From Bacillota bacterium (GTDB taxonomy: Bacteria; Bacillota; Sulfobacillia; DUSP01; JBFMCS01): a stretch of DNA of 44,272 nt. The notes beneath the pieces were generated by a model, which saw only the letters and a list, made by a program, of their open reading frames with translations, had not been told where the DNA came from and did not search any database. The DNA lies in the NCBI GenBank assembly GCA_040754315.1, contig JBFMCS010000026.1, forward strand, positions 1 through 44,272. Direction: 5' to 3'. Below, piece by piece: positions 11,232-41,808 of the stretch; within the stretch, counting starts at the first letter, position 1, and the number at the start of each line of letters is the position of its first letter. The translations under genes and the position numbers were made by a program.

Positions 11232-11232
11232 T

Positions 11233-25350: not shown

Positions 25351-25388
25351 GGTATACCCCTCCTCTCTCTGAAGAAGAGTATACCATG
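25348..25388 (-). promoter_or_regulatory. Hairpin sequestering the transposase start codon
   Basis: CATGGTATAC (25348-25357) and GTATACCATG (25379-25388) are perfect 10-base arms. In the minus-strand transcript the transposase ATG is the last three bases of the 3' arm, and its SD (GAGGAGGGG) lies in the 21-base loop. Transcripts entering from outside would fold and hide the start, a known way for insertion sequences to limit transposase production. Confidence 0.6.
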
Positions 25389-25476
25389 AAACTGGTTCTT
25401 ATTATAGTTTTAGGGTTGACACTACACTAGTGTGAACACAGGGTGACAGGCTTGGGGTGGGGAAACCTTCACGGGG

Positions 25477-25794
25477 CTACGAATCTCTACGTTCATGTGC
25501 CAGAAGATACACTTCATCATTAGCCCTTCTGGAAACCACAACGACCTTCATGGTGGCGTCTTCCCGCGAGACTTTGTAGACCACTCGCAAACCTAATTTT
25601 CGAATTTTGATCTTGCAGTAGCCTGTCAGGTTCATGCTGCTTCTACTGGCCAGGGGTTTTCCATAGCCACCCTCCATCAGGGGTAATGGATTAACCGCCA
25701 CCTTGTTGACGGCTTTCAACACCTGGATGCGTTGTGACGGGTCAAGCCGTCTGATGTCCTCCAATGCTTCTCTCAAATACTCCACCTTCCACAT
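25477..25794 (-). CDS. RelE/ParE-family toxin
   Basis: 105 residues with the RelE-fold pattern: WKVEYLREALEDIRRLDPSQ at the start, KIKIRKLGLRVVYKV in the central sheet and VVVVSRRANDEVYLLA at the end. Proteins of this group cleave mRNA on the ribosome. The start codon immediately follows the stop of the upstream antitoxin gene (TAG ATG), the usual antitoxin-first arrangement. It is within the mobile-element zone next to tRNA-Val. Confidence 0.85.
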   Translation of the reverse strand: MWKVEYLREALEDIRRLDPSQRIQVLKAVNKVAVNPLPLMEGGYGKPLASRSSMNLTGYCKIKIRKLGLRVVYKVSREDATMKVVVVSRRANDEVYLLAHERRDS

Positions 25795-26124
25795 CTATTC
25801 TGTCTCCACGTCTGCACCGTCTAAGTCAGCCTCAGTGATGCCCAGTTCCTGCATGGCTTTTTCCACTGGGATGAAATCCCCTGCCCCTGTATTTTCCATC
25901 CGCTTCCCGGCTTCTATGAATAGGTGATAGTCCTCGATGGCCTCAAGCATCTGCCCATAGGATTCTGGTGAGAGTAGTACGCAGACGGGGGAGTTGTTCT
26001 TAAGCACAATCTTGAAGCCTGTTTCACGAACCTCCTCAAAAACCCTGTTGGCTTCGCCCTTGTTGAAGCGGGAAATCGGCACAAGAGAATTCACTAAGTC
26101 TTTGATAGAGACGGCCTTCTGCAT
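25795..26124 (-). CDS. Phd/YefM-family antitoxin
   Basis: 109 residues from the ATG at 26124, preferred because AAGGG lies 8 bases upstream; a GTG at 26133 is in frame. The N-terminal Phd/YefM DNA-binding domain shows VPISRFNKGEANRVFEEV, FKIVLKNNSPVCVLLSPE and YGQMLEAIEDY. The acidic C-terminal tail (about residues 80-109) would wrap and neutralise the toxin. First gene of the module, behind an AT-rich promoter with a perfect palindrome. Confidence 0.87.
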   Translation of the reverse strand: MQKAVSIKDLVNSLVPISRFNKGEANRVFEEVRETGFKIVLKNNSPVCVLLSPESYGQMLEAIEDYHLFIEAGKRMENTGAGDFIPVEKAMQELGITEADLDGADVETE

Positions 26125-26163
26125 AACATTCACCCTTCTCAGTGACAGTCATGGACTGCTGTT

Positions 26164-26201
26164 CTTGCTAGCAAGCTATATCATATCTATAAATTTGTCA
26201 A
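26164..26201 (-). promoter_or_regulatory. Promoter and palindromic operator of the toxin-antitoxin module
   Basis: On the minus strand TTGACA (26201-26196), a 15-base AT-rich spacer and TATAGC (26180-26175) resemble a sigma-A promoter with a short spacer. CTTGCTAGCAAG (26164-26175), a perfect 12-base palindrome, abuts the -10 box, where antitoxins of this family bind to repress their own genes. Confidence 0.5.
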
Positions 26202-26334
26202 GGCATTTATCCATGAAGCTATTTGCTCTAATTGCTCTAAGATCCTGCCGTATTGATCATCCCGAGCACTTACCAGCGGTTACGGTACTCATCTCGGCTG
26301 GCCCTGGCCACTCCGTGGGGCATGCTGTCCATAA

Positions 26335-27090
26335 CCCTCTACGAGCATCTTCGAGCGCGACCTCTCAGCAAGAACGATCCGTTACGTTCACGCCGTGTTG
26401 AGAAATGCCCTCGAACAAGCAGTCAAATGGCGTCTTCTCCAGCAGAACCCGGCTGACAATGTTGATCTGCCCAGACAACAGCGGGAAGAAATGCGGCCAT
26501 TATCCTCAGACGAAGTGAAGCGCTTTCTAGAGGCTTGCGAGGAAGACCGATTTGGTGTTGTCTTTAGGCTTCTCTTAACTACCGGCCTCCGCCCGGGTGA
26601 GGCGCTGGCCCTAAGGTGGTCAGACATGGACCTGGAAACCGGGCGACTACATGTCCAGCGAAGCCTTGCACCTGGCAAGGGTTTCGAGGAGCCCAAGACA
26701 CCCCGTGCAAGGCGGGTGGTTCCCTTGCCTCCACCCGTAACTAAGGCCCTAAAGCAGCATGGAAAGACGCAAGCCGAGGCACGCCTTCAGGCCGGTGAAA
26801 ACCGGCAGGACCTTAGCTTGGTGTTTACCGGAAGTGATGGCCAGCCTGTCCACTACCGCAACCTGGTACGGACACTTCAAACCTCTTAGCCAAGGCCGGC
26901 CTTCCCGATGACATCAGGATTCACGACCTCCGCCACAGCCATGCTACGTTGCTGCTGAAGGAGAGCGTAAATCCCAAGATCGTTAGTGAACGCCTCGGAC
27001 ATGCCAGCGTAACTCTCACCCTGGGTGCATACAGCCACGTCCTGCCCGACAGCAGAAGGAAAGTGAGGCATCTTGAGTTTCAAGCACTAT
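26335..27090 (+). pseudogene. Tyrosine integrase, N-terminally truncated and frameshifted
   Basis: The first frame covers part of the SAM-like N-terminal domain (ERDLSARTIRYVHAVLRNA) and the catalytic domain start with the first Arg (LLTTGLRPGEALALRW). It stops at 26889 after RNLVRTLQTS. Similarity continues in other frames: HFKPL, then LAKAGLPDD and HDLRHSHATLLL (His-x-x-Arg box), ERLGHASVTLTLGAYSHV (second His and the nucleophilic Tyr). At least two indels are needed, and the DNA-binding N-terminus is missing, so it is inactive. It points at the 3' end of the tRNA-Val gene, the normal position of an integrase at its attachment site. Confidence 0.8.
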
Positions 27091-27147
27091 ACAAGCACAA
27101 GAAAGACTTTGACCACCCTCTTGGGTGGCCGGTTTTATCGGTTTACC

Positions 27148-27222
27148 TGGTGGGCGGCACAGGGCTTGAACCTGTGGCCTCGTGAATGTGAGTCACGCGC
27201 TCTTCCACTGAGCTAGCCGCCC
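27148..27222 (-). tRNA. tRNA-Val (anticodon CAC)
   Basis: The minus strand folds into a complete cloverleaf: acceptor GGGCGGC/GCCGCCC, D arm GCTC...GAGC, anticodon stem CGTGA/TCACG with loop CTCACAT (anticodon CAC, reading GTG), T arm ACAGG-TTCAAGC-CCTGT, discriminator A and an encoded CCA. The integrase relic ends next to its 3' end, suggesting it was an integration site. Confidence 0.95.
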
Positions 27223-27266: not shown

Positions 27267-27488
27267 CCCTACGCCCTAGACCACAGCTAGGCACCCTTGC
27301 TCCGGCCCTTTTTATACCAGGCCTTGGGCGCCTAATTCCCAGCAGAGCCACCATTTACCGTTGATCCCCATATACTGAATACTGTAACGTTATAGAGCAG
27401 TACTAGTTTACGTAACAAGGAGGATCTAAACGGTTCATGTTGAACACCCAGTACCTTGTTGACATTCACACGAAGAGAGGCGCTCACC

Positions 27489-28496
27489 ATGGCTCGCATC
27501 ATAGAAAAGGAGACAGCACAAACACTACCGCTTAAGCGGTACCCAGGGAACCCCATCCTTGAACCCAAGAGGGGCCATTGGTGGGAGTCCCGTTATGTGC
27601 TGAATTCTGGGGCTATCCGGATCAACGGTGTCGTCCACATCTTCTACAGGGCACTGGGCACTGACGGTGTGTCCCGGCTGGGCCTCGCCAGGAGCCCCGA
27701 TGGCCTGTGCATAGAAGAGAGACTGGCACACCCGGTGTTTGAGCCAATAGGTGAAGCCGAGAAGATGGGCTGTGAAGACCCACGCCTATTCATGATGGGG
27801 GATCGTGTCTTCCTGTTCTACAACGCCTATGACGGTCGCCTGGCTCAGATTGGCCTGGCGTCAATAGACGTAGAAGACCTTCTGGCAGACCGGTGGGACC
27901 GCTGGGAGAGGCACGGGCACATGTTCCCTGGCCAGCCTCACCGGAATCCGGTACTGTTTCCTGAGCGGACAAACGGTGAATACGTGCTGTACTACAGGAT
28001 CAAGCCAAACATAGTGATATCCAGGGCGCAGGACCTTACGTGCCCCTGGAACGCTGATGATGGCCGGTTCTTCATGGGTCCCCGGGAAAACTACTGGGAC
28101 GACTCCTTCATTGGAGGAGGAGCCCCGCCCATTAAAACCGAGTATGGATGGCTCCTGATATACCACGGAGTGGACCAGAATCTCGTCTACAGGCTGGGCG
28201 CTTTCCTGGTAGCCCTGGATGACCCATCGACGGTGCTGTACAGGACACCCGACCCCGTCCTGGAACCCAGGGAGGTTTGCGAGGTGGGTGAGCCCGGCAA
28301 GTGCTGGGTGCCCAATGTGGTGTTCACGTGTGGCGCTGTGCCCCGCGAGGACAAGGAAGTCCTGGGAGCTCACGACGAGATCTTGGTGTACTACGGCGCC
28401 GCCGACAGTGTCATCGGTGTAGCTACAGCTTCCGTATCTGACCTGGTACCCTGTGTAGCTGGATGGCACGAAGATGAGGAAGGCGCCCCCGGTTAA
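27489..28496 (+). CDS. GH130-family beta-mannoside phosphorylase-like enzyme
   Basis: 335 residues from the ATG at 27489 (AGAGAGG upstream); in-frame codons further up lack similarity. The five-bladed propeller of GH130 is indicated by RYPGNPILEP, WWESRYVLNSGAI, FYRALGTDGVSRLGLARSPD, the catalytic Asp in GCEDPRL (about residue 97), DDSFIGGGAPPIKTEYGWLLIYH and the C-terminal YYGAADSVIGVAT. GH130 enzymes split beta-linked mannosides with phosphate to mannose 1-phosphate; linkage (beta-1,2 or beta-1,4) cannot be told here. It has no signal peptide, so it acts in the cytoplasm. It is convergent with the sigma-54 activator gene and close to the GT/GH94 operon. A strong AAGGAGG at 27417 precedes a 32-codon frame (27437-27535) that overlaps its start. 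Confidence 0.88.
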   Translation: MARIIEKETAQTLPLKRYPGNPILEPKRGHWWESRYVLNSGAIRINGVVHIFYRALGTDGVSRLGLARSPDGLCIEERLAHPVFEPIGEAEKMGCEDPRLFMMGDRVFLFYNAYDGRLAQIGLASIDVEDLLADRWDRWERHGHMFPGQPHRNPVLFPERTNGEYVLYYRIKPNIVISRAQDLTCPWNADDGRFFMGPRENYWDDSFIGGGAPPIKTEYGWLLIYHGVDQNLVYRLGAFLVALDDPSTVLYRTPDPVLEPREVCEVGEPGKCWVPNVVFTCGAVPREDKEVLGAHDEILVYYGAADSVIGVATASVSDLVPCVAGWHEDEEGAPG

Positions 28497-28512
28497 CCGC
28501 GGGGCGCCTTCC
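28478..28512. terminator. Bidirectional terminator hairpin between convergent genes
   Basis: GGAAGGCGCCCC (28478-28489) and GGGGCGCCTTCC (28501-28512) form a perfect 12-bp stem; the GH130 stop codon lies in the loop. No long T-run follows, but the position between convergent genes and the stability fit a two-way terminator. Confidence 0.75.
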
Positions 28513-28551
28513 ACCGTTTGCCAAGCTACCAGTGACCACATCACGTGGAGT

Positions 28552-30384
28552 CTACCGTCTCCTGACGGGCAGTGTGATACCCAGTTCCTGTATCTTCCTA
28601 TACAACGTAGTGCGGCTGATCTTGAGCATGCGTGCAATGCGTTCCTTGCTCTCGCGACTGTCTCCGTACTTCATGAGGCAGCTCTCAATGATATCCCTTT
28701 CCTGCTCACGTATGCGTTTCTTCAACGATAGGGACTCATCCCGGGCACCATGAATCGCGGCCTTCCTCACCCTGAAGGGAACACTGTCAATGGTGATTGT
28801 CTCACCTGTCTCCATATTTGCCGCATACTCCACCGCGTTCTCCAGCTCCCTAACGTTCCCTGGCCAATCATAGTTCCACAGGACAGACATGGCTGCCTTG
28901 CTGAACCCCCTGAAGTTCCTTCCCAGAAACCCGGAGTGTTTACGCAGGAAGGCCTCAAGGAGAACAGGGATGTCCTCCTTCCTCTCCCTCAGGGGCGGTA
29001 TGTAGATGGGAATGACATTGAGCCGGAAGAACAGGTCCGACCGGAACTCACCATCCCTGATCATGGTCTCAAGGTCCCTGTTGGTTGCCGCGATGATCCT
29101 CACATCCACAGGAAAGGTTCTCCTTCCACCTATACGGTCTATGCGCCGTGTCTGGAGAACGTTCAGAAGCTTCACCTGGAGATGAAGAGGAAGGTCCCCT
29201 ATCTCATCCAGGAAGATGGTGCCCCCGTCGGCCAGCTCGAACTTGCCGGACTTCCCTTCCCTTCTTGCACCGGTGAATGCCCCTCCCTCATAGCCGAAGA
29301 GCTCCGACTCAAGGAGTGACTCGGGAATTGCGCCGCAGTTCACGGTTATGAAGGGCCCTGAACCCCTGAGGCTCTCATGGTGAATGGCCCTGGCAAAGAG
29401 CTCCTTGCCAGTACCACTTTCCCCGGTGATCAGCACCGTGGAGTTGGTCCCGGCGATACGCAGTGCCTTGTCCTTAACCTCAAGGAGAGTCTCGCTCTGC
29501 CCCTTGATGTCATCGAACCCGTAGCGCTGACCTGAATCCGTCACTGCGTAGACTAGGCGGCGGACATCGCTCACGTCCCTTAGCGATGCCACTACCCCCA
29601 CCACGCTGTCCCCGTCCAGTACCGGCCTCGCGCTGGTGAAGACGTGAACGCGGCTGGACTGTGACCCGTAGATCTCCTCCCGGTTCACTATCTCTCTTCC
29701 TGTCCTGAGTACCTCAAGCACACAGGAATTGGGCCAGCGGCTGGCCAAGGGCTTCCACACCAATTCCCGCCTGGGAATACCAGTGACCGCCTCAGCGGCC
29801 CTGTTAGCGTGGGTAACCACACCCTTACCGTCTATAGTCAGCACTCCTTCGCTGATGGTCTCGAGTATGGTAGTCATCTGGCTTGAGGCGAGCCTAAGCC
29901 TCTCCAATCCCTCGGTCTCTGACACCTTGCTGGCAATCATGTCCGCCATTCTCCTGAGAAACAGCAAAATGGTATCTCGCTGGCTGAGGAGGGTCTTGCG
30001 CTGTTCGCTGTTAAAAGCGGCAAAGCCAATAACACCCAGGACCTCATCTAAAAGCATGATCGGGCTGCATATCTCAGCCAGTTCTTCAGTCTCACCCTTG
30101 AGGGAAGAGGGATCATACGTGGGATCACTGGCGGGGTTTTCAACAACGTATGGTTCCCGAGTGTTCATTACCCGGCCATACAGGAAACCTGCATTCCTGT
30201 CGCCCCATTCCAGCTTGTCACCCACGCGTAGCCTGTACTTAGACGTTCCAGCCACAACCGTGAGCTCGCTGTCCACGATTTCTGTCTCCACTCCAAGGGC
30301 AGCCGATATCGCCTCAGCCACCTGCTGGACCGTATCCCCTATCTCCGAAAGGCGCGACAATGGGCGGCACCCCCGGTTCCACAT
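28552..30384 (-). CDS. Sigma-54-dependent transcriptional activator (GAF-PAS-AAA-Fis)
   Basis: 610 residues. An N-terminal GAF-like sensor (about 20-150) is followed by a PAS domain (about 170-275, with ILETISEGVLTIDGKGVV and ANRAAEAVTG), the AAA+ domain with Walker A GESGTGKE (321-328), the sigma-54 contact loop GAFTGA (368-373) and Walker B GGTIFLDEIGDL (387-398), and a C-terminal Fis-type helix-turn-helix (ERIARMLKISRTTLYRKIQ). There is no receiver domain, so it probably senses a small molecule directly. It lies between the GH130 gene and the GT/GH94 operon, which has a sigma-54 promoter 6 kb away, so it probably activates that operon. The ATG has a weak SD; an in-frame TTG eight codons later, behind GGGGGTG, is an alternative start. 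Confidence 0.9.
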   Translation of the reverse strand: MWNRGCRPLSRLSEIGDTVQQVAEAISAALGVETEIVDSELTVVAGTSKYRLRVGDKLEWGDRNAGFLYGRVMNTREPYVVENPASDPTYDPSSLKGETEELAEICSPIMLLDEVLGVIGFAAFNSEQRKTLLSQRDTILLFLRRMADMIASKVSETEGLERLRLASSQMTTILETISEGVLTIDGKGVVTHANRAAEAVTGIPRRELVWKPLASRWPNSCVLEVLRTGREIVNREEIYGSQSSRVHVFTSARPVLDGDSVVGVVASLRDVSDVRRLVYAVTDSGQRYGFDDIKGQSETLLEVKDKALRIAGTNSTVLITGESGTGKELFARAIHHESLRGSGPFITVNCGAIPESLLESELFGYEGGAFTGARREGKSGKFELADGGTIFLDEIGDLPLHLQVKLLNVLQTRRIDRIGGRRTFPVDVRIIAATNRDLETMIRDGEFRSDLFFRLNVIPIYIPPLRERKEDIPVLLEAFLRKHSGFLGRNFRGFSKAAMSVLWNYDWPGNVRELENAVEYAANMETGETITIDSVPFRVRKAAIHGARDESLSLKKRIREQERDIIESCLMKYGDSRESKERIARMLKISRTTLYRKIQELGITLPVRRR

Positions 30385-30463
30385 AACCTGCCTGGGGAAT
30401 ACTTCGCCAGTGCCGCCATTCCTCCTGGTGTCCCGGGATTGGGAACATCACCTAGCCCAAGAG

Positions 30464-31489
30464 TCAGGATGTGTGCTCCTCAAGTACTCGCCGATAGACA
30501 CCCAGGTAGCCTTGGACCATGCGCTCCCTCGAGAAGCGTTCCTTCACCCATTCCCGTATTGGCCTTGGGTCTAAGGATGACACACCCGCTATAGCCCGGA
30601 CCCCTTCCCGGACATCCTGGACGATACGGCCTGTGACACCATCCTCGACAACCTCGGGGATGGATCCGTAGGGATAGGCCACCACTGGAGTACCGCAAGC
30701 CATAGACTCCACCAGGGAAAGGCCGAAGGCCTCCGGCCTGGGAGCCATGTGCAAGAGAGCCACACACGACGGGAGTAAAGCGTTCTTTCCCTCAATGCCG
30801 ATGGGGCCTATATACCTTACCCGGTCCCCGTCCAGGTGAGGCTCCACCATTTCCCGAAAATAATCCCGGTCTTGAACAATACCAGCAATGGTCAATCTTT
30901 CCCCGGCGGCAAGGCTTGTTTCTATAGCCAGGTGCGTCCCCTTATCCGGCGCGATCCGCCCGAGGTAGGCAAGCCCATCCCTGCGTCCCTCACCGAACCG
31001 GTACTCCTCGACGGGGATGCCGTGGTAGACGGTGTCGATGTACTCCAGTTCCGGGTGCCGGCTGGCGTTGCTAATGGAAACGTATTTTACCCTTCCAGAG
31101 TACTTCCGGTAGACTGGGAGAATGGAGGGGCCAGAAAACCCGTGAATGGTCGTGACCACAGGGGTGTCCACCATTCGGGAAAAGGCCAGTGGCATGAAGT
31201 CGTAGTGGTTGTGAACGAGGTCGAAGGATCCCTTCTTTGCCTCCTCAAACACCGAGGAGACATGAAGGTATTCCTCTACCTTCGAATCCAGGTTAGGGTC
31301 TTCGTACAACGGCCTTGGGCAGGTCCACAATAGGCGGCCCCTGGTAATGGAATCCCCCGTCGCAAATAGCGTAACTTCCTCTCCGGTCTCGCCTAATCCC
31401 TCTGCCACAAGGCTGGCTACCATCTCCCAAGGCCCGTAGTGCCGCGGGGGCGTCCTCCAGCATATGGGGGAGACTATGGCGATCCTCAT
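30464..31489 (-). CDS. GT4-family glycosyltransferase
   Basis: 341 residues with the GT-B fold of family 4. The N-terminal domain starts MRIAIVSP with the glycine-rich acceptor loop at YGPWEM and DLVHNHYDF. The C-terminal nucleotide-sugar domain shows YLGRIAPDKGTHLAI, the E-x7-E motif in PEAFGLSLVESMACGTPVV, and SIPEVVEDGVTG. It is a cytoplasmic retaining glycosyltransferase; donor unknown. The gene overlaps the end of the GH94 gene by 4 bases and is the last of the operon. Confidence 0.87.
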   Translation of the reverse strand: MRIAIVSPICWRTPPRHYGPWEMVASLVAEGLGETGEEVTLFATGDSITRGRLLWTCPRPLYEDPNLDSKVEEYLHVSSVFEEAKKGSFDLVHNHYDFMPLAFSRMVDTPVVTTIHGFSGPSILPVYRKYSGRVKYVSISNASRHPELEYIDTVYHGIPVEEYRFGEGRRDGLAYLGRIAPDKGTHLAIETSLAAGERLTIAGIVQDRDYFREMVEPHLDGDRVRYIGPIGIEGKNALLPSCVALLHMAPRPEAFGLSLVESMACGTPVVAYPYGSIPEVVEDGVTGRIVQDVREGVRAIAGVSSLDPRPIREWVKERFSRERMVQGYLGVYRRVLEEHTS

Positions 31490-33879
31490 CCCTTGGCAGG
31501 CCCCTGGGCACGTCCCATGACTACATCCACCTGGTGCCTCTTGGCGTCCTTAAGATCCGGTAGCACCTGGCCCTCATGGGGCTTACCATCGATCTTCACT
31601 TGTCTCACTCCCCAGGACACGCGGTCCGGGTTCTCCACCCTGATGTCGTATGTGGCACCCCTGAACTCACGTTGGAAACGGTAGCCTTTCCATTCTGGGG
31701 GAATGCAGGGGTCCACCATCAGGCCACCGTACTCAGGTCTCACTCCAAGGATCCACTCGGTACACACCTTGAACATCCACGGTGCCGTTCCCGTGGTCCA
31801 GGAGAATTCCCCCATGCCGGAGTAAGGGGACTCAGGTCCGTGGACGTACTCTGCGTACACATAGGGCTCCGCCTTGTACCGGAGAATATCCCGGGACTGT
31901 GTAAGGAAAAGAGACTTGCGGTAGTACTCGTAGGCAACATCTCCCCGGCCTAAAATGGCCTCGGCCATCACAGCCCAGGCAACGGAGTGGTTAAACACCG
32001 CACCGTTCTCCTTGGACCCAGGAGAGAACATGGTTATTATGCCGATCCGCGGATCCGGGCCAGAATAGGCAGGAAGGAACAGTGCAGGTCCATAAGGTGT
32101 ATCCAACACTTCCCTCACGCTATCCATGGCCGCAATCGCCCTGTCCCTGGGGGCTATGCCGCTGAGCACGGGCCACGCCTGAGCGTTCAGGAACACGCGC
32201 CCTTCATCGTTCTTGGAAGAACCAATAGTATAGCCATCATCGGTCACTGCTCGGACATACCACTTCCCGTCCCAGAAGTGCTCATTCACGGCCCTGGCCA
32301 ACTCGTTGTACGAACCCCGGCAACTGTCCCTGGTTAAATCGTCCCCTCTCTCCTTGGCCAGTGCCTCGAGTTCCCTCAAGGCCAAGGCCAGGAGCCCCGC
32401 TGTGAAAACACTCTCACCCCTGCCCGCGGACCCTACTTGGTCAAGGCCGTCATTCCAGTCCGCCGCACCCATCAGCGGTATCCCCCTGGAGCTCAGGCGC
32501 CCCAGGGTGTATTCAACTGCCCGCTGGATGTGCTGGTAGATGATCCCCTCTCCCTCGTCGTAGTACGCACAGGACTCATCAAGAAAACCCATCTCCCCTG
32601 TCTCCCGCACGTAGGCAGCCACTGCCAGCACCAGCCACAGGGGGTCGTCCGAGTGGCCGGTCCGGGGTCCCGAGCCAGATATGGGATCCCAGTTGTGAAG
32701 GGTTCCCCCGTCCCTGAACTGGTGGGCCGCGATATCCCTAAGCCTTGTCTTGACGCGCCCAGGCTCCATGGGAACTACCCCCAGGACATCCTGGCAGGTG
32801 TCGCGAAAACCTATTATGCTACCTCCCCCTACATAGTAGCTGCTCATCCTGGCCCAGTCGAAGGTGAAGCGTGACTGGTACTTGTTCCATACATTGATGG
32901 CTAGGTCGAGGCTGTCATCAGGGGTATCTACGCGAAGCCTGCCTATGTATTCCCTCCAGTGGACCGCCAGCCTCTCAGACTCCTCCGCCACAGCCTCAAG
33001 CTGGGAGAACCTCGTCACCAGAGACTGGGCCTCCTCAATGCTCCCGGCAGCCCCCACCGTTACCGTGAACTCCCACTCCTCCCCTGGGTCAAGAAACACG
33101 GGAAGCTGGAAGGCCCCGCAGCTATCCCGCCCCGTGGAAACGGAATTCGCCAGGAGCCCTCGTTCCACACCCACGGGGTTCTGCGTGGACCGGTACATTC
33201 CGGTGAAGCTCTCCCTGACAGTGTCGAACCCCTCCTGAACGGCGCTGGTACCCATGAAGGCTATCTTGTCCCAGGGAGCATGGGGCTTCTGGGGCCGGTG
33301 CCCGATGTTCCACAGGTTCTTCCGGGCGACGATCATACCCTCCCGCAGTTCAACCTGGTTGAAGAGGCCGGAGAACCCCGTCTCAATGAGGTCGAAGGCA
33401 TAATTTCCCAGGCACCACTCAACGTAAGGGAAGATGGTAAGCTCCCTGGGAATCCCCGTGCTGTTGCCGATCTTAACCCGCCAAACCTCAAGGTTCGCCC
33501 CTAGGGGAACAAAGTACAGTATGTCACCCATGATGCCGCGCGTCTCGGAGACTATCCTTGTATAGCCTAGTCCGTGCCGGGCCTGCCAGTAGCTGGGGAG
33601 TCTCTGCACGGGCTGCCACGTAACGGACCAGTACTCACCGGTGACCCGGTCCCTTATGTACACGTACCTCCCGGGCCTGTCGCTCAGGACTGTCTCGGGG
33701 GGGTAAGCCCGGGTTATCCTGCTATACCCGGAACTGCCAAGAAAGGAATACCCTCCGCCGGTATGGGACACCAGCGCGCAGTACTTCCCATTGGTGATGC
33801 AGTTAATCCAAGGCCTTGGCGTGTCATAGCGATCGATGATGTACTCAAGCCCATCCTCAGAGAAACGCCCGTAACACAA
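31486..33879 (-). CDS. GH94-family phosphorylase (cellobiose/cellodextrin phosphorylase-like)
   Basis: 797 residues from a TTG at 33879 with AGGTGA upstream. It has the full GH94 layout: an N-terminal beta-sandwich starting YGRFSEDGLEYIIDRYDTPR, a linker, the (alpha/alpha)6 catalytic barrel and a C-terminal cap. Catalytic Asp477 is in GAADWNDGLD; other conserved stretches are GGGSIIGFRDTCQDVLG, GGTLHNWDPISGSGPRTGHSDDP and MFSPGSKENGAVFNHSVAW. GH94 enzymes phosphorolyse beta-glucosides (cellobiose, cellodextrins, chitobiose, beta-1,2-oligoglucans) to sugar 1-phosphate. No signal peptide is present, so the substrate is intracellular. The co-operonic glycosyltransferases suggest turnover of an endogenous glycan rather than only imported cellodextrins. 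Confidence 0.9.
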   Translation of the reverse strand: MCYGRFSEDGLEYIIDRYDTPRPWINCITNGKYCALVSHTGGGYSFLGSSGYSRITRAYPPETVLSDRPGRYVYIRDRVTGEYWSVTWQPVQRLPSYWQARHGLGYTRIVSETRGIMGDILYFVPLGANLEVWRVKIGNSTGIPRELTIFPYVEWCLGNYAFDLIETGFSGLFNQVELREGMIVARKNLWNIGHRPQKPHAPWDKIAFMGTSAVQEGFDTVRESFTGMYRSTQNPVGVERGLLANSVSTGRDSCGAFQLPVFLDPGEEWEFTVTVGAAGSIEEAQSLVTRFSQLEAVAEESERLAVHWREYIGRLRVDTPDDSLDLAINVWNKYQSRFTFDWARMSSYYVGGGSIIGFRDTCQDVLGVVPMEPGRVKTRLRDIAAHQFRDGGTLHNWDPISGSGPRTGHSDDPLWLVLAVAAYVRETGEMGFLDESCAYYDEGEGIIYQHIQRAVEYTLGRLSSRGIPLMGAADWNDGLDQVGSAGRGESVFTAGLLALALRELEALAKERGDDLTRDSCRGSYNELARAVNEHFWDGKWYVRAVTDDGYTIGSSKNDEGRVFLNAQAWPVLSGIAPRDRAIAAMDSVREVLDTPYGPALFLPAYSGPDPRIGIITMFSPGSKENGAVFNHSVAWAVMAEAILGRGDVAYEYYRKSLFLTQSRDILRYKAEPYVYAEYVHGPESPYSGMGEFSWTTGTAPWMFKVCTEWILGVRPEYGGLMVDPCIPPEWKGYRFQREFRGATYDIRVENPDRVSWGVRQVKIDGKPHEGQVLPDLKDAKRHQVDVVMGRAQGPAKG

Positions 33880-33889
33880 TAGCGGTCAC

Positions 33890-34108
33890 CTACCTGAGCC
33901 TGATCTCGTTTACCACATTTCTTACCCCAGGAGCACCCCGGGCGATGACCTCCGCTTCCTTGACGCAGCCTTCCTCACCCACCGCGCCGGAAAGAAACAC
34001 CGTGCCGTTGCGGGCAATCACCTTGATCGGATACGTGGCGAGGAATTGATCGGCTCCAAGCAGGCTTTGTACATGTTGTGCCAAGGCAACATCCTTCAGG
34101 TCATCCAT
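33890..34108 (-). CDS. Small stand-alone BON-domain protein
   Basis: 72 residues from the ATG at 34108 (AAGGAGG about 11 bases upstream; an upstream in-frame extension lies in the preceding gene). The sequence fits one BON unit: LAQHVQSLLGADQFLATYPI then KVIARNGTVFLSGAVGEEG, VKEAEVIARGAPGVRNVVNE. BON domains usually bind phospholipid surfaces and occur in envelope proteins, often with a signal peptide, which is absent here. It stands between the alpha/alpha-toroid gene and the GH94 gene. Its role in a sugar operon is unclear; it could be a membrane or glycan docking partner. Confidence 0.75.
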   Translation of the reverse strand: MDDLKDVALAQHVQSLLGADQFLATYPIKVIARNGTVFLSGAVGEEGCVKEAEVIARGAPGVRNVVNEIRLR

Positions 34109-34124
34109 GAGAAGGTTATCCTCC

Positions 34125-35195
34125 TTACGCGGCCACGTGATGGCGCTTCTTGGCGCACTCAAGTAAGGATAGATAGGCTATAAAAAAGGCTAGTACGGAC
34201 TCGGCACCCATGTTAAGGTTAACACCCTCTGGGGTGATGCCGTCATGGCATCCTCCCGTCCTCTCATCGTAGAGGGCTTTCCCCGCAGAGTTCCTACCGA
34301 GAAACCACTGGAACGCCATGTGAGCCAGGCGGTAGTACCTTTCCTCCCCGGTGGCGTGATAGGCCTCCCCACATGCCAGCACCAGTGTTCCCATGTCCAC
34401 GGGCTGCTCGTCGTACTCAGCCATGGTGTACCCCTTCTTATACCATCCCCTATTGCCCACTGTCTTGAAGTGGCGGCCACGCCAGGTCTGGCCCGTAAGG
34501 AACGCCAGCGTCTCTTGGCCACAACCCAGGTACCGGTCATCCTTGATCTCGCGGTAGGCCGCGAAGAGCGACGCTGGCAAGAGCCCATTATCGTAGGCAA
34601 GTATATCCTCATACCACTGCCACTGGGGCTGGGAGTACCATTCCTTCTGCGTAACCAGGGAATCAGCCAGCACCTTCATGATGCCCTTTATCATCGTTGC
34701 CTCCAACCCCTCCCCGCTACCCAGAGAGAGTAGGCGGAACCTGAGGCCCAGGATCGCCTGGGCCCTTGCCCTGGGGGCCTTTAGCCTCTCACACCAGGGG
34801 AGGGCTCCATTGAAGAGTCTCTCCCCATTGAGCCTGATGGCGGGGTTCTGGCTCATAGTAGCCCGCCCGCTGGCCCATAGGCACCGGCCAAGGCAGTCTT
34901 CAGAGCCCACGTCGTCAACAAAACGGCGGGAGTAGTCCATGAGGTTATGGAAACGGCCATCGGCCAGCTGGGAGTGCTTCAGGTAGGCCATGTAGACCTC
35001 AATCAAGGGGGTGACGCCCTGAATACCCGCCTCTTCCAGCGCCAAGGCGACCACGAGTGCCCGGGCATTGTCGTCCGTTGCATAGCCTGAGTCCCTGTCT
35101 GGCAGAGAGTAGGCAGCGTGCTGTATCATGCCCGTATCGTCGGTGAGCCGTACAAGGTGATCCGTTTTGGGCGCCGGGTACCTGTTCAGCTGCAA
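34125..35195 (-). CDS. Alpha/alpha-toroid (six-hairpin) glycan-associated protein
   Basis: 356 residues from a TTG at 35195 with AGGTGAGGTGA upstream. The sequence is mostly helical with regularly spaced aromatic and acidic residues, as in six-hairpin glycosidase folds: HAAYSLPDRDSGYATDDNARALVV near the N-terminus, GRFHNLMDYSRRFVDDVGSEDCLGR, WQWYEDILAYDNGLLPASLF and a C-terminal EGVNLNMGAESVLAFF. I know this family mainly as a domain fused to or beside GT4 glycosyltransferases in beta-mannan/glucan gene clusters; no reaction is assigned. Here it is encoded 17 bases after one GT4 gene, consistent with the pair acting together. Confidence 0.65.
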   Translation of the reverse strand: MQLNRYPAPKTDHLVRLTDDTGMIQHAAYSLPDRDSGYATDDNARALVVALALEEAGIQGVTPLIEVYMAYLKHSQLADGRFHNLMDYSRRFVDDVGSEDCLGRCLWASGRATMSQNPAIRLNGERLFNGALPWCERLKAPRARAQAILGLRFRLLSLGSGEGLEATMIKGIMKVLADSLVTQKEWYSQPQWQWYEDILAYDNGLLPASLFAAYREIKDDRYLGCGQETLAFLTGQTWRGRHFKTVGNRGWYKKGYTMAEYDEQPVDMGTLVLACGEAYHATGEERYYRLAHMAFQWFLGRNSAGKALYDERTGGCHDGITPEGVNLNMGAESVLAFFIAYLSLLECAKKRHHVAA

Positions 35196-35212
35196 GTCAC
35201 CTCACCTGATAG

Positions 35213-36454
35213 CTATTCATGCCTCCTGCCAGACACCGGTACATCCATGGTGGCGACACGCCGCGCGGTCCCACGCAAAGACGCCCTGAAGACATCCCGG
35301 TAACAACGGGCGACATTGGGCCACTGGATCCGGGCACGGTACGCCACCGCCCTGGCCTCCAGGTCTCTCTGGAGATCTGGTGACCTGAGAATTGCCCCAG
35401 TGGCGGCTGCCAGAGAACGGGCGTCAGTGAAGTTTGAGAAGAGGCCGCGCCCACCCTCCAGGACCTCCCTGGCATATATGAAGGGAGTGGAGACCACGGC
35501 GCGTCCCATGGCGAGGGCATAAGCCAGGGTTCCGCTGGATATCTGTTCTTCGTTAAGGTAGGGAGCGACATAGACATCTGTTGCCACCAGGTACCTCAGC
35601 AGGTCCTGCTGGGAGAGATACTCGTTTACGAAACGAACATTCCCTTCAACCCCTATCCTGTGCGCGACTTCCTGCAGGTGCTCCCTGTAGGACTCGCCGT
35701 ACTTCCTCCTGACTACGGGATGGGTCTGCCCAACAACCAGGTAGATGATGTCGGGGAACTCCTTGAAAAGCCGGGAAACCGCCTCGATGACGTACTCTAC
35801 GCCTTTGCCTGGATTGATGAGCCCTATGGTCGAAAGTACCTTACAGGGGCAGAGAGACAGCTCCTTACGGATGACCTCCCTGTCCAGCCCTTCCGCTGTG
35901 GGGACACCGTGGGGTATTGTCACCACCATGGAAGGGTCAATATCGTATAGTTCCTGCAGGAGTTCCTTTCCCGCCTTTACCATGACTACCACGGACTTGG
36001 AGAGCCCAGCGATGGCTCTTACGATGGTCTTGACGCGCCTGCTGGGCCTTCTCAGCACCGTGTGGAATGTGGTCACCACTGGCTTGTTTAGGGCCTCCAG
36101 GAGGGCGATGACATACTCGCCGTCGTCCCCACCGAATATGCCAAACTCGTGCTGGATGGATACCGCCTGGGCTGGGCACTGAGTGTTGATGCGATGGGCA
36201 GCCTCAGTATAGGAGGTAATGTCATCCTGGAGAATACGGGCGGTCACGCCCGGCCCAACCGTGTCCGTTATCTCCTCGACCAGGGAGACCACGGGGAACC
36301 CAATGGTCTCAAGCGGCCTGGGGCCGCTGGCGAGACCCTCCATGGCGTGCCTCAGGTCCTGAGTGAACGTGGCTATGCCGCACCTTCGTGGCGGGTAGGT
36401 GCTGACAAAGACTACCGGGGGACAGTCAAATGGGCCCGAGACACGGAGGTTCAA
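35213..36454 (-). CDS. GT4-family glycosyltransferase, first gene of the glycan operon
   Basis: 413 residues from a TTG at 36454 behind a near-perfect GGAGGTGA. GT-B fold: FVSTYPPRRCGIATFTQDL at the N-terminus, VSIQHEFGIFGG, VVTTFHTVLRRPS, then STIGLINPGKGVEYVIEAV and ISSGTLAYALAMGRAVVSTP in the nucleotide-sugar domain. The second Glu of the usual E-x7-E is replaced (EQISSGTLA), as is typical of this subgroup as I recall it. It is about 100 bases downstream of a sigma-54 promoter. The next gene follows after 17 bases. Confidence 0.85.
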   Translation of the reverse strand: MNLRVSGPFDCPPVVFVSTYPPRRCGIATFTQDLRHAMEGLASGPRPLETIGFPVVSLVEEITDTVGPGVTARILQDDITSYTEAAHRINTQCPAQAVSIQHEFGIFGGDDGEYVIALLEALNKPVVTTFHTVLRRPSRRVKTIVRAIAGLSKSVVVMVKAGKELLQELYDIDPSMVVTIPHGVPTAEGLDREVIRKELSLCPCKVLSTIGLINPGKGVEYVIEAVSRLFKEFPDIIYLVVGQTHPVVRRKYGESYREHLQEVAHRIGVEGNVRFVNEYLSQQDLLRYLVATDVYVAPYLNEEQISSGTLAYALAMGRAVVSTPFIYAREVLEGGRGLFSNFTDARSLAAATGAILRSPDLQRDLEARAVAYRARIQWPNVARCYRDVFRASLRGTARRVATMDVPVSGRRHE

Positions 36455-36991: not shown

Positions 36992-38554
36992 TCATTCAAA
37001 TCCCAGTACATTTACGGCATGCAGGCTTCCATTACCTGTGCCATCCCCCAGCTGCCCACGGTCATTCAGGCCCCAGGCCCTGACAGCACCAGGCGCCAGG
37101 ACCGCAACGGAGTGGGAGCCCCCGCCAGCAACAGCCTGCACCATCGCCAGGCCAGCCAGCTCCACCGGGTTCCAGCGGTCGAAGGTTGTACCATCGCCCA
37201 ACTGCCCGGAACCGTTGCTGCCCCATGCCATAACCTTACCATCCTCTAGAATAGCCAGGGAATGCCTGGCCCCGCACATCACCACGGAAGCGGTACCTAG
37301 CCCTGAAACCTTAACAGGAACGCTTCTCCACCCTATTGTCCCGTCTCCCAGTTGTCCTTGTCCGTTGTACCCCCAGGCCATGACCCTTCCGTCTGAAAGG
37401 AGCGCCAGCGAATGGCGAGCCCCGGCGGACACAGACACCGCTGCCTGTACCTGGCTCACCTGCACGGGTTCTGATCTAGCCGAATTGCTGCCGTCACCCA
37501 GCTGGCCGTATGTGTTTCCTCCCCACGCTACCACACGGCCGTCGTCCAGCACTGCCAGGGAATGCTCCGAACCTGCGGCAATTGCCACCGCATTGTTGAC
37601 GTTCTTCACTGCCACGGGGCTCCGCCTCGTGATGTGGGTTCCGTCTCCCAGCTGCCCATTTGCGTTGTTACCCCACGCCATCACCCGGCCATCAGATAGG
37701 AGCGCCAGTGAATGAGAATCCCCAGCAGCCACCGAAATGGCATCCACGATCCCTGTATCCACAGGCCTCGTTCTCACCGCCGTGCTTCCATCACCCAGCT
37801 GCCCGCTCTCATTCCTTCCCCAGGCCAGCACCCTCCCACATGACAGCACAGCCAGGGAGTGGGTAAGACCCGCCGCCACGCCAGCCGCCTCAGCGAGGCC
37901 CACAACGCTGGTAGGGGCAGTGCGGTACGCAAAAGAGCCGTCGCCCAGCTGGCCAAACATGTTTTCACCCCAGGACATTACAGAACCGTCAGGCAACAAT
38001 AGTAGTGAATGGGAGCCGCCTCCTGCCACCGTCACCGGCTTCGCGGGCCCTGGTGCCTCCCCTGATCCCATGTCCAGTTCAAACTGGGTGAAGAAGGTGT
38101 CCGGCTTGCTGTGCCGGGGTGAAGAGGCTGTTTCCTGTGTGGCGAACACCAACCCTGTGGGGGTGACACAGTAGTAGATCATTTCCCCGCGGGACCTATC
38201 CAGCCCGAAAGCAGCTGCGCTCCGGGCAGGTTCGAACTGTAGATATCCTCCCACCAGGGAATTGCCTGCAGGGTCCTGGGCCGTCATGGAGAGGTCCCAT
38301 CCAAAGACCTCCCCTTCGCGGTGAACCCCTGGTGTGTCCCCCGCCGGGAGGTAACCGGATTCCGCGTGGAAACGGTCTACGGCCACTTGCAGGCGTGCCA
38401 GCGTGCTGCGCAGGGCCTGGTGCCTTGCGCGCCTCACCAGGTCCGGCATTGAAGCCCTGGTCACTGCCAGTAACGTACCCATCAAGGCCAGTGCAATAAG
38501 CAACTGTACTAGGGTGCCCCCAATGCGCCACTGAAGCGTCCGGCCCCAGATCAC
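36992..38554 (-). CDS. Pseudopilin fused to a seven-blade RCC1 beta-propeller
   Basis: 520 residues from a GTG at 38554 that overlaps the ATPase stop (GTGA) behind GGGGGAGGGA. Residues 1-35 form a type III (prepilin) signal: short basic leader, Gly12 as cleavage site, then GTLVQLLIALALMGTLLAV. The conserved Glu5 is Gln and the usual Phe1 is Gly. Residues 45-140 are paralogous to the pilin at 41320 (for example GGYLQFEP, LDRSRGEMIYYCVTPTGLVFATQ). Residues 173-520 hold seven RCC1 repeats, each with HSL.LL.DG.V.AWG.N..GQLGDG. RCC1 propellers bind proteins or other ligands. After PilD-like processing this would be a minor subunit with a large propeller head, probably exposed at the pilus tip or cell surface. 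Last gene of the operon. Confidence 0.88.
   Translation of the reverse strand: MIWGRTLQWRIGGTLVQLLIALALMGTLLAVTRASMPDLVRRARHQALRSTLARLQVAVDRFHAESGYLPAGDTPGVHREGEVFGWDLSMTAQDPAGNSLVGGYLQFEPARSAAAFGLDRSRGEMIYYCVTPTGLVFATQETASSPRHSKPDTFFTQFELDMGSGEAPGPAKPVTVAGGGSHSLLLLPDGSVMSWGENMFGQLGDGSFAYRTAPTSVVGLAEAAGVAAGLTHSLAVLSCGRVLAWGRNESGQLGDGSTAVRTRPVDTGIVDAISVAAGDSHSLALLSDGRVMAWGNNANGQLGDGTHITRRSPVAVKNVNNAVAIAAGSEHSLAVLDDGRVVAWGGNTYGQLGDGSNSARSEPVQVSQVQAAVSVSAGARHSLALLSDGRVMAWGYNGQGQLGDGTIGWRSVPVKVSGLGTASVVMCGARHSLAILEDGKVMAWGSNGSGQLGDGTTFDRWNPVELAGLAMVQAVAGGGSHSVAVLAPGAVRAWGLNDRGQLGDGTGNGSLHAVNVLGFE
36995..38038 (-). repeat. Seven tandem RCC1-coding repeats of about 150 bp
   Basis: The DNA shows seven in-frame repeats of roughly 145-155 bases. 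The encoded core HSLALLSDGRVMAWG appears almost identically in units 3 and 5, and GQLGDG occurs in all seven. Near-identity of some units at DNA level points to recent duplication or gene conversion, while the outer units are more diverged. Confidence 0.9.
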
Positions 38555-40107
38555 ACTCCCTCCCCCTTTTCATCTACCCTGCGGTCCCACGTGTTCGTAC
38601 ACACCGGATAGGCGATTTCCATTACCTCTTGCACTGAGGTGATCCCCCGCTCTACCTTGGATACCATGTCTGCGCCCAGGCTCCAGTAATCTGCACTCCC
38701 CAGGGCTGGCACCAGGCCCTCAGGGCCGGATTGCACCAGCAAAGACCGCACCTGGGCTGTCGGGACTAGAAACTCGAAGACCCCGGATCGCCCCCTGTAG
38801 CCCGTGCCAGAACAGTGGGGGCAGCCCTTCCCTCTGAAGGCGGTTGTCACATAGCTCCCACCCAGTCTCTTGAGGTGATCCCGTTCTTCCTTGACAAGTG
38901 CCAGCCGCTGGATGCACCGGGAACATATGCGCCTGACCAGTCGCTGAGCCACCACGCAGTTGACCGGAGGCACCGCCGAGGATCCGGGTCCTCCATACTC
39001 CGAGAGCCTTCGCAGGGCCGAGAGCGCGTCTGGGGCATGCAGCGAGCACAATACCCTGTGGCCGGTGGAGGCTGCCGTAAGGGTGACCCTGGCGCTCTCT
39101 TCACACCGCACCTCGCCAATCACCAGCACATCCGGATCCGTGCGCAAGGCGGCACTCAGGCCAGATCCAAAGGTCCAGCCTCTCCCGGGCTTGATCTCTA
39201 TCTGTGTGGCCCCGGGAAGCCTCCACTCCACAGGGTCCTCCATGGTCACCACATTGGTACCTCCCATGTCTAGGAGCGTGCTGTATAGAGTCGTGGTCTT
39301 ACCGGATCCGGTGGGGCCGGCAATGACCGTTAGTCCCGGTAGCCTGGACATCACGGACTCCTTGAAACATCGAAGGGTGTGAGACTCAAAGCCCAGGCGT
39401 TCAAGAGGGAGGAGGCCCCGGCCCCTATCCACCAGGCGGCAGGCAATCCGTTCCCCGTTCAGGGTGGGAACGACGGTAGCCCTCACCGTAACGACCCCTT
39501 CCTGGGTATTGACCACAGCCCTCCCGTCCTGCGGTGAGTGGTGTTCCACCACGTTCATCCCGGCGAGTACCTTGACCCTGTTCACCACCCAGCTGTAGTC
39601 TGGCAGGGGAATGGTCCCTACATCTACCAGGCTGCCATCGATCCGGTAACGGAAAAGCGCCGAGTCTTCCCCCGGTTCCATGTGGAGATCTGAGGCTCCG
39701 GCCTTGGCAGCCCCTGCCAAGAGCGAGTCTACTACCGCAGGCGCCCATGTCATCATCCCCTTCTCATCCTTGCCGTCCCCTGGTCGTGCCCTCCCATGGC
39801 AGCCAGATAGCAGTTCCTCCCCGATGTCCTGGGCAGGAACCAGCCTCCAGCGAACTTCAAGACCGGTGATATCCTGGACCAGCCGGGCAAGACTACTGTG
39901 GACACTGCTGGCGGCCAATTCTAGCACCCCGTCGCGGACTCGCAATGGGACTACTTGATAGAGACGAGCCATGTACTCTGGGATAACGTCCAGCGCTGAA
40001 GCCTCTAACTCAGATACGAGGCGGGCTTCCCCTGGCAAATCAAGGTCCCCCTGTCTCCTTGAGGCGAGGCTTGGCCTTGCAGTAGCCATGGGATTGACCC
40101 CCCTCAT
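38551..40107 (-). CDS. Type IV pilus/type II secretion assembly ATPase (PilB/GspE-like)
   Basis: 518 residues. An N-terminal N1E/MshEN-like domain (about 25-105) precedes the ATPase domain with Walker A GPTGSGKTTT (264-273), the Asp box around MEDPVEW, Walker B DPDVLVIGEVR (324-334), the His box TGHRVLCSLHAPDAL, and the tetracysteine zinc site (Cys395, 398, 429, 432). In the Walker B extension the usual Asp of GEIRD is Cys335. It powers assembly of the pseudopilus from the cytoplasmic face. It starts inside the stop of the platform gene (ATGA) and ends inside the start of the RCC1-pilin gene, so the three are translationally coupled. Confidence 0.92.
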   Translation of the reverse strand: MRGVNPMATARPSLASRRQGDLDLPGEARLVSELEASALDVIPEYMARLYQVVPLRVRDGVLELAASSVHSSLARLVQDITGLEVRWRLVPAQDIGEELLSGCHGRARPGDGKDEKGMMTWAPAVVDSLLAGAAKAGASDLHMEPGEDSALFRYRIDGSLVDVGTIPLPDYSWVVNRVKVLAGMNVVEHHSPQDGRAVVNTQEGVVTVRATVVPTLNGERIACRLVDRGRGLLPLERLGFESHTLRCFKESVMSRLPGLTVIAGPTGSGKTTTLYSTLLDMGGTNVVTMEDPVEWRLPGATQIEIKPGRGWTFGSGLSAALRTDPDVLVIGEVRCEESARVTLTAASTGHRVLCSLHAPDALSALRRLSEYGGPGSSAVPPVNCVVAQRLVRRICSRCIQRLALVKEERDHLKRLGGSYVTTAFRGKGCPHCSGTGYRGRSGVFEFLVPTAQVRSLLVQSGPEGLVPALGSADYWSLGADMVSKVERGITSVQEVMEIAYPVCTNTWDRRVDEKGEGV

Positions 40108-41252
40108 ATGGCCTCCAGGAGCCTGTAGGTAGGTAAGATGACCGAGAGGGCGATTAAGGCCACAAGGCCCCCGGCTATCGCGAGGGAGACTGGTTCAAGG
40201 ATGGCAAGGGCTCTGGCCGCAGCACGGTCAGCCTCGCCTTCGTAGAGCATTGCCGCCTTTTTCAGAACCTCACAGGTGTTGCCCGCGCTGTGGCTGGCGT
40301 GTACCGCATGGCATACCTCCCAGGGAAGCCCTGGAATTGCGGCCAGTGCCTGGTCCAAGGGCATACCCCCCACGATCATGGGGATGATACGCTGAACCCC
40401 GCGTTCAAGGCGAGGGCTTCCACAGGACTGGGCTGCCAAAGCCATGGCTTGGCCAATCTCAACTCCCGAGGAGAGTCCCTCCGACAGGGCATGGGCGAAA
40501 CGACTCACCTGGTTCAACCTGAGAACCCTCCCTGAGAGGGGCAGTACCCCCCACATTTTTTCTAGCCTCTCCTTGCCGGTTGACCCCCGGAACACTGCGA
40601 AATACAATAATACGGTGATCAGGGTGACCGGAGCCAATTTTACGGGGTGCCTAAACGCATAAAGGCAAGCACTCATAAACCAAGTGATAGGACGGGGCAT
40701 GGAGGCTCCCATCATGCCAGCCATCTCCAGGCTTCCAGGGAATACCGACAAAGAGAGGTATGTAATAGCCGCGAAGACGGCCAGGAAAACTAGTATGGGA
40801 TAGGTCATGACAGCCTCTGCCTTTCGCTTCACTGAGATGGATCGCTCTAAATGGCATGCGCACCTATCCAGGGCTGCAGGGAAAGCCCCGTTTGCCTCAC
40901 CCGCCTGAAGCATTGACACGTGCAGTGGGGAGAAAAACCCAGGATACCGAGCCATGGCGTCTACGAATCCCTGCCCGGCCCTGACCCTCGCTGCAACACC
41001 GGCGAGGACTGGGCTCCAGGCACCTGCCGTCCCTCTAGACAGGATCTCCAGGGAAGCCAGGACGGGGATCCCCATCTTAAGCATGGCGTGGAGCTGGCGG
41101 AACACAGAAACAATGATTGCGGGATCGGGGCCGGTGAGCCACCCGCAGCAGCCGCCCCAGGCTCTCCGGGCGCTACCCCTCTCTTGCCCCTCCCCCAGGT
41201 GCCCCCCTGGTATCCCTGCCGCCTTCCGGGATGTACGGAGTAACCTGAACAT
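40104..41252 (-). CDS. Type IV pilus/type II secretion inner-membrane platform (PilC/GspF-like)
   Basis: About 382 residues from the ATG at 41252, preferred because GGAGGGG lies 9 bases upstream (ATG at 41273 is possible). It has two T2SF cytoplasmic repeats: the first around FRQLHAMLKMGIPVLASLEIL and GFVDAMARYPGFFSPLHVSM, the second around NQVSRFAHALSEGLSSGVEI, separated by three membrane helices (VMTYPILVFLAVFAAITYLS and others) with a C-terminal helix. The N-terminal 35 residues are poorly conserved. It links the ATPase to pilin polymerisation. Confidence 0.9.
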   Translation of the reverse strand: MFRLLRTSRKAAGIPGGHLGEGQERGSARRAWGGCCGWLTGPDPAIIVSVFRQLHAMLKMGIPVLASLEILSRGTAGAWSPVLAGVAARVRAGQGFVDAMARYPGFFSPLHVSMLQAGEANGAFPAALDRCACHLERSISVKRKAEAVMTYPILVFLAVFAAITYLSLSVFPGSLEMAGMMGASMPRPITWFMSACLYAFRHPVKLAPVTLITVLLYFAVFRGSTGKERLEKMWGVLPLSGRVLRLNQVSRFAHALSEGLSSGVEIGQAMALAAQSCGSPRLERGVQRIIPMIVGGMPLDQALAAIPGLPWEVCHAVHASHSAGNTCEVLKKAAMLYEGEADRAAARALAILEPVSLAIAGGLVALIALSVILPTYRLLEAI

Positions 41253-41278
41253 CAACGATCGCCCCTCCCTCATGGGAA

Positions 41279-41319: not shown

Positions 41320-41808
41320 CTATAAGATGTCCGTCAAGGACAGGATGCCGCTTACGTCATTCTGGGTGTAGACCGGGACGTCATCCTCCTCTGTCCACCC
41401 ACCCTGGCTCGGTTCTGCCTGTGTGGCAAAGACCCGTCCTGAAGCGGTAACCCCGTAGTACACCCTCTCACCGTCTGCCGCCCTTAGCCCAAGGTCCACC
41501 GGGTTGTCATTGGGCGCAAACTGCACATACCCACCCAGAAACCCTTCTTTGGCGGAATCCGAGGCGGACAGGGCAATAACACCAGCCACCTGCCCCGCCT
41601 CGGGCTGGATTTCGCTGGGGTATACATTGGTTTCTGCGTAGAACCGGTCACAGGCCGACTGAATCACCGCCAGGGTTGCCCCGAAGGCTGCTTCCTTGGC
41701 CCTGGTTGTGGCTGCGGGAACCACGCCCACAACAACTGACGTCAGTACTGATAGTACAATCACCACAATCAGAAGCTCGACCAGAGTGAACCCCTTGCTC
41801 CTGCGCAT
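41320..41808 (-). CDS. Prepilin-type major pseudopilin (PilA/GspG-like)
   Basis: 162 residues from the ATG at 41808; GGGAGG lies about 10 bases upstream and the start gives a canonical prepilin leader MRRSKG followed by FTLVELLIVVIVLSVLTSVV (cleavage after Gly6, Phe1 and Glu5 present). The globular part has the GspG-like ACDRFYAETNVYPSE segment, then GGYVQFAPNDNPVDLGL and ADGERVYYGVTASGRVFATQ, which are repeated in the RCC1-pilin of the same operon. It should be the main structural subunit. It heads the operon; the extended upstream frame lacks a signal. Confidence 0.92.
   Translation of the reverse strand: MRRSKGFTLVELLIVVIVLSVLTSVVVGVVPAATTRAKEAAFGATLAVIQSACDRFYAETNVYPSEIQPEAGQVAGVIALSASDSAKEGFLGGYVQFAPNDNPVDLGLRAADGERVYYGVTASGRVFATQAEPSQGGWTEEDDVPVYTQNDVSGILSLTDIL

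Follow-up and report, generated by a model that had tools for sequence, protein, structure and literature searches.

The locus at positions 36992..38554 (-) raises the question of whether a pilus machine can carry, as one of its own subunits, a complete seven-blade RCC1 propeller, and, if so, where such a subunit would act and from where its propeller was obtained. The gene lies at the 3' end of a pilus operon in a 44,272-nucleotide stretch of DNA (the window) from a Bacillota bacterium of the class Sulfobacillia (GCA_040754315.1, contig JBFMCS010000026.1, positions 1 to 44,272). In our reading, it encodes a modular pilin, probably located at the filament tip and presenting a ligand-binding propeller, of which we infer both the tip position and the ligand.

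The gene forms a single intact frame of 520 aa, with coordinates and strand exactly as given in an earlier sequence-only reading. Its GTG start shares bases with the stop of the upstream PilB gene (GTGA) and is preceded by a purine-rich ribosome-binding site, AAAAGGGGGAGGGAGT-GTG. The protein consists of two modules, a pilin (residues 1–157) and seven RCC1 repeats (residues 169–520), joined by a short linker. The leader VIWGRTLQWRIG (residues 1–12; 38519..38554 (-)) ends at the presumed prepilin cleavage site G↓GTLVQ, which is placed by alignment with the operon pilin. The remainder of the pilin module (residues 13–157; 38084..38518 (-)), a hydrophobic helix with a GspG-like head, is delimited by its identity to the operon pilin, by the GspG profile and by the structure models. 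The linker (residues 158–168; 38051..38083 (-)) is marked by low pLDDT between the modules, and the seven-blade propeller (residues 169–520; 36995..38050 (-)) is assigned from Pfam, the AlphaFold model and the match to UVR8. The blades are 43–64% identical to one another in protein and only 50–68% in DNA, and the G+C content is even across the fusion point and equal to that of the neighbouring genes; neither recent expansion of the repeats nor an artefact of assembly is therefore likely. No other RCC1 gene was detected in the source genome.

All four genes of the operon lie on one strand in the order pilin-PilC-PilB-RCC1-pilin. The first encodes a pilin of 162 aa, probably the major one (41320..41808 (-); N_methyl 3.7e-8, GspG model 6.2e-10), with an ATG at 41808, beyond which its open frame extends to 41922; its signal is canonical, and its best match among the signal and pilin models is GspG. 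It is followed by a PilC/GspF-type platform protein of 389 aa (40104..41273 (-); T2SSF 2.4e-40), the stop of which overlaps the PilB start, and by a PilB/GspE-type assembly ATPase of 518 aa with an MshEN domain (38551..40107 (-); T2SSE 3.4e-84, MshEN 2.7e-7). The pilin/platform/ATPase operon described in the sequence-only reading is thus confirmed by Pfam for both the PilC (T2SSF) and the PilB (T2SSE) neighbour. A tRNA-Met lies downstream of the RCC1-pilin. Within the operon, no PilM/N/O, PilT or prepilin peptidase gene is seen, so these would have to be supplied from elsewhere. A single prepilin peptidase match exists in the genome, on a different contig, and another cluster, on contig 51, comprises pilins together with PilB-, PilT- and PilC-like genes.

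The pilin module (residues 1–157) is 38% identical to the operon pilin over 141 aa (E 7e-26) and, judged from this alignment, is a diverged paralogue of it. This identity, together with the Pfam matches described below, bears out the earlier description of a pilin-type domain followed by seven RCC1 repeats in one open frame. As for the prepilin signal claimed alongside it, the cleavage region aligns with that of the operon pilin (RIG↓GTLVQLLIA in the RCC1-pilin, SKG↓FTLVELLIV in the operon pilin), but the usual Phe1 and Glu5 are replaced by Gly1 and Gln5, and neither the N_methyl nor the TIGR02532 model matches the RCC1-pilin. Such a degenerate signal would fit a tip subunit and also an unprocessed protein. 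Glu5 is absent in the capping K subunit and in Streptococcus sanguinis PilA (PMC9934059); however, the Kelch-bearing relatives of the RCC1-pilin described below retain Glu5, so its absence is no general tip mark in this pilin family. The family profile gives its longest alignment with GspG (5wda), and other pilins are also matched. In both structure models, a helix runs from residue 2 to about residue 65, and confidence in the head is low; the RCC1-rich alignment contains no homologues of the pilin part. A pilin module, an extra module foreign to pili (the RCC1 propeller) and pilus assembly genes alongside are all found at this locus, as in the "modular pilins", an established class (PMC8179133).

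The propeller is matched by WD40_RLD (9.8e-100), RCC1 (2.2e-74, six stretches) and RCC1_2 (5.3e-72, seven stretches), and with Pfam E-values of 1e-72 to 1e-100, chance matches are out of the question. In the AlphaFold model, residues 175–216, 223–266, 272–315, 322–365, 372–415, 422–465 and 472–517 form the four-stranded blades of a closed seven-blade propeller, with most of the region 171–520 (318 residues) above pLDDT 90. This high-confidence model was built on an RCC1-rich alignment to which 14 RCC1 proteins from viral contigs were added; it replaces an earlier three-sequence model, which was too shallow (pLDDT 49). The best structural match is UVR8 (Z 55–57, rmsd 1.5–2.6 Å, about 350 residues), followed among solved structures by HERC2, RPGR and RCC1. 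Structure prediction of the whole protein, which had been proposed as a check, therefore returns the expected closed seven-blade propeller, with UVR8 matched at Z 57. Seven repeats in a closed propeller place the protein in the RCC1 superfamily. UVR8 and the other RCC1-like domains share this fold but are eukaryotic, intracellular and without a pilin part. Nucleotide exchange on Ran is not expected from a surface protein. With a pI of 6.0, the propeller is mildly acidic and thus gives no pointer to DNA binding. For the PilC/PilY1-type propeller (IPR008707), no such Pfam model matches the RCC1-pilin, for which only RCC1-type models are listed.

The sequence-only reading knew of no characterised pilus subunit of such a design, yet one has been published: the minor pilin PilX2 of Nanosynbacter lyticus TM7x bears an RCC1 propeller and is required for binding to the host (PMC12206443). 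When pilX2 is deleted, binding drops from about 10.6% of host cells to 4.6% and thin pili stay in place, and no PilD signal is predicted in PilX2 (PMC12206443). In a protein search of 332 Patescibacteria and 398 Bacillota genomes, in which the N-termini of the best RCC1 matches were examined (at most the best 30 loci per search), at least four further RCC1-pilins are found (G419, G217, G460 and G583), distributed over at least one other Bacillota family and at least three Patescibacteria. In G460, the gene is surrounded by pilin genes, and the design of its product recalls that of TM7x PilX2. The G217 protein has a PilX-type N-terminus and is encoded among pilin genes with PilC nearby. In G583, a Bacillota genome of another class than the source, the protein has a prepilin-like signal and, by eye, an Ig-like spacer, and its neighbours are PilT, PilB and PilC. 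The G419 protein has a canonical signal, yet its gene stands outside any pilus cluster. The pilin module of the source shows no significant BLAST match to those of G583, G217 and G460 and shares only the N-terminal helix region with that of G419. A single-protein scan of viral contigs yields no relatives. An RCC1-alignment scan of the same kind of contigs gives 47 loci (L212–L258), and RCC1 proteins seem to be common in environmental phage contigs; by a simple pattern, none of these RCC1 frames has a pilin-like N-terminus.

Of 154 genomes of the class, 8 contain a full-length match to a profile of the pilin module, and the corresponding operon slot can be compared. In G028, G046 and G058, which belong to one family, the gene directly 3' of PilB encodes a homologous pilin module, a Gly/Pro-rich linker and 11–12 Kelch repeats (L042:6980-9967, L044:6472-9237 and L045:12471-15239, respectively). 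The Kelch repeats are spaced by about 48 residues, and their number suffices for two six-blade propellers; two of the three proteins match N_methyl above the curated cut-off. The Kelch-pilins also bear an extra C-terminal stretch of about 70 aa. In G019, the operon goes on through PilM-/PilO-like and pilin-like genes and ends in a secreted protein of 748 aa with a PQQ-type propeller and a PKD domain (L053:17148-19394), a possible unfused counterpart of the RCC1-pilin. In G015, a secreted protein of 412 aa lies directly 3' of PilB (L180:6368-7606); it has no Pfam match and by eye is perhaps a propeller, and a late pilin in this operon runs off the end of the contig. The contigs of G052 (Bacillota bacterium SM1-B18.1) and G084 stop before the 3' slot. 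In all five genomes where the operon is readable and a recognisable 3'-side domain is present, that domain is a propeller, and among these five the pilin-fused propellers are only of the RCC1 and Kelch types. Among the class genomes searched, the RCC1 version is found once, namely in the source genome. With regard to the recurrence anticipated in the sequence-only reading, RCC1-pilins do recur beside pilus genes in other lineages, whereas the same slot beside PilB in same-class genomes holds Kelch repeats. An alignment-based scan of named genomes mostly returns unrelated pilins and names one relative, G052. Other RCC1 proteins of the class (those of G028, G052, G072, G036 and others) were considered as candidate pilins and rejected, as their N-termini are not those of pilins. 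The branches of the pilin-module tree are long, and a shared origin of the RCC1- and Kelch-fusions is neither supported nor rejected by it.

The origin of the propeller was addressed with a tree of 25 RCC1 domains, five of them pilin-borne. The five pilin-borne propellers need five label changes, at least three of which are forced by well-supported branches, and they cluster no more than shuffled labels. The secreted RCC1 protein of G028 is the sister of the source propeller (96/89), and that of G052 joins next (94/93), both from the same class as the source; between the G583 propeller and a secreted RCC1 protein of G863, a genome of the same family as G583, identity is 71%. From these relationships, the source propeller was probably taken locally, from a secreted RCC1 protein of its own class, and repeated local capture, in which a pilin is fused to a propeller already in the lineage, would be the simplest account. 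Because the bootstrap had not fully settled, such repeated capture is likely rather than proven. Tentatively, and with somewhat less than even confidence, the 3' end of the operon may be viewed as a swappable slot, the same tip position being refilled by unrelated beta-propellers from secreted proteins of the own lineage. The propellers exchanged there might be RCC1, Kelch and perhaps, as a separate protein, PQQ, which we hold as tentatively as the slot itself. If this is true, selection at the pilus tip keeps the fold class and not the sequence.

The RCC1-pilin is most likely a binding subunit at the tip, by analogy with the adhesive modular pilins PilB and PilC of S. sanguinis, which are modelled at the tip (PMC8179133, PMC9934059), and with TM7x PilX2. 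The prepilin peptidase, whose gene lies on a different contig, would cut the leader, and the operon PilB and PilC would insert the hydrophobic helix into a filament. The tip position follows from the argument that a bulky C-terminal module clashes with the subunits above it (PMC8179133); the propeller would find room only at the tip or close to it, exposed on the outside of the cell, and would serve as the binding part, its putative partner being a polymer on a surface, a protein or another cell. The tip binder of the sequence-only reading is therefore retained as the most likely interpretation by analogy, with its position and its ligand kept at the level of prediction. It is unlikely, by comparison, that the protein stays out of filaments and is held at the cell surface in the membrane, with the pilin helix serving as its signal anchor. 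The degenerate signal (Gly1, Gln5) and the silence of N_methyl and TIGR02532 would agree with such an anchor, as would TM7x PilX2, which also lacks a predicted PilD signal and the deletion of which leaves thin filaments (PMC12206443). However, the whole pilin head is kept beyond the helix, the start overlaps the PilB stop, two of the three Kelch versions score above the N_methyl curated cut-off and all three occupy the same operon slot.

The tip-subunit reading is also to be weighed against a secretory role, in which the operon builds a short secretion pseudopilus and the propeller recognises or pushes exported substrates. The GspG model as best match of the operon pilin, the longest family-profile alignment with GspG 5wda and the minimal gene set without a PilT of its own all point in this direction, but Secretin (PF00263) has no match genome-wide at a stated completeness of 100%, and no other type II secretion genes are seen in the operon, which makes this role very improbable. 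The earlier label "pseudopilin", which implies type II secretion, is accordingly dropped. That the fusion arose as a chimera during assembly, or is a gene in decay, is hardly credible: it occurs once among the class genomes searched, with no second copy from a close relative, but the gene is internal to the contig and overlaps PilB, its G+C is even, its blades diverge and no stop interrupts it, and comparable fusions recur in other genomes.

Compared with TM7x PilX2, the RCC1-pilin likewise has a C-terminal hepta-bladed RCC1 propeller, a noncanonical signal and a pilus system that has a PilB and a PilC of its own; its pilin module differs in being paralogous to the operon pilin and of GspG-like type, PilX2 being compared by description only. 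The candidate Patescibacteria counterparts of PilX2, in G460 and G217, give no significant BLAST match to the source pilin module, and in the RCC1 tree their propellers branch apart from the source propeller. With S. sanguinis PilB (vWA) and PilC (lectin), it shares a bulky non-pilus module, a short linker and a single-membrane bacterium, but there the module is vWA or lectin and not a propeller, and three minor pilins exist where one is seen here. The PilC/PilY1 tip adhesin of double-membrane bacteria also places a beta-propeller at the pilus tip, a position that is predicted for the RCC1-pilin; PilY1, unlike the latter, falls outside the pilins and has a propeller of the IPR008707 type. In the literature searched, no paper was found that joins kelch, type IV pili and minor pilin, and Dataset S1 of PMC8179133 might list RCC1 or Kelch pilins. 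As far as the literature searched shows, the Kelch-for-RCC1 exchange in one operon slot is new, and so is the evidence that pilins have repeatedly captured propellers locally. The RCC1-pilin, so far characterised in one episymbiont, is thereby extended to Bacillota, and the data suggest that the pili of unrelated bacteria repeatedly gained beta-propeller heads when a pilin was joined to a propeller available in the same lineage. The RCC1, Kelch and PQQ forms on related pilus machines offer a natural series for asking why propellers suit tips and how specificity evolves.

Several further features are observed in the window. Adjoining the pilus operon, positions 27456-36454 hold an apparently glycan-related cluster, in which further glycosyltransferase-like genes, large carbohydrate-active-looking proteins and a sigma-54-type regulator are recognised by eye; Pfam confirms only one glycosyltransferase and a BON-domain protein. 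At 24210-27222, transposase-like pieces in two neighbouring frames and an integrase-like frame are seen by eye, the latter close to a tRNA-Val (27148-27222), and this region is perhaps a mobile-element remnant. Meanwhile, three successive frames at 9639-13660 resemble, by eye, the spore germination receptor subunits A, B and C, which suggests that the source bacterium is a spore former.
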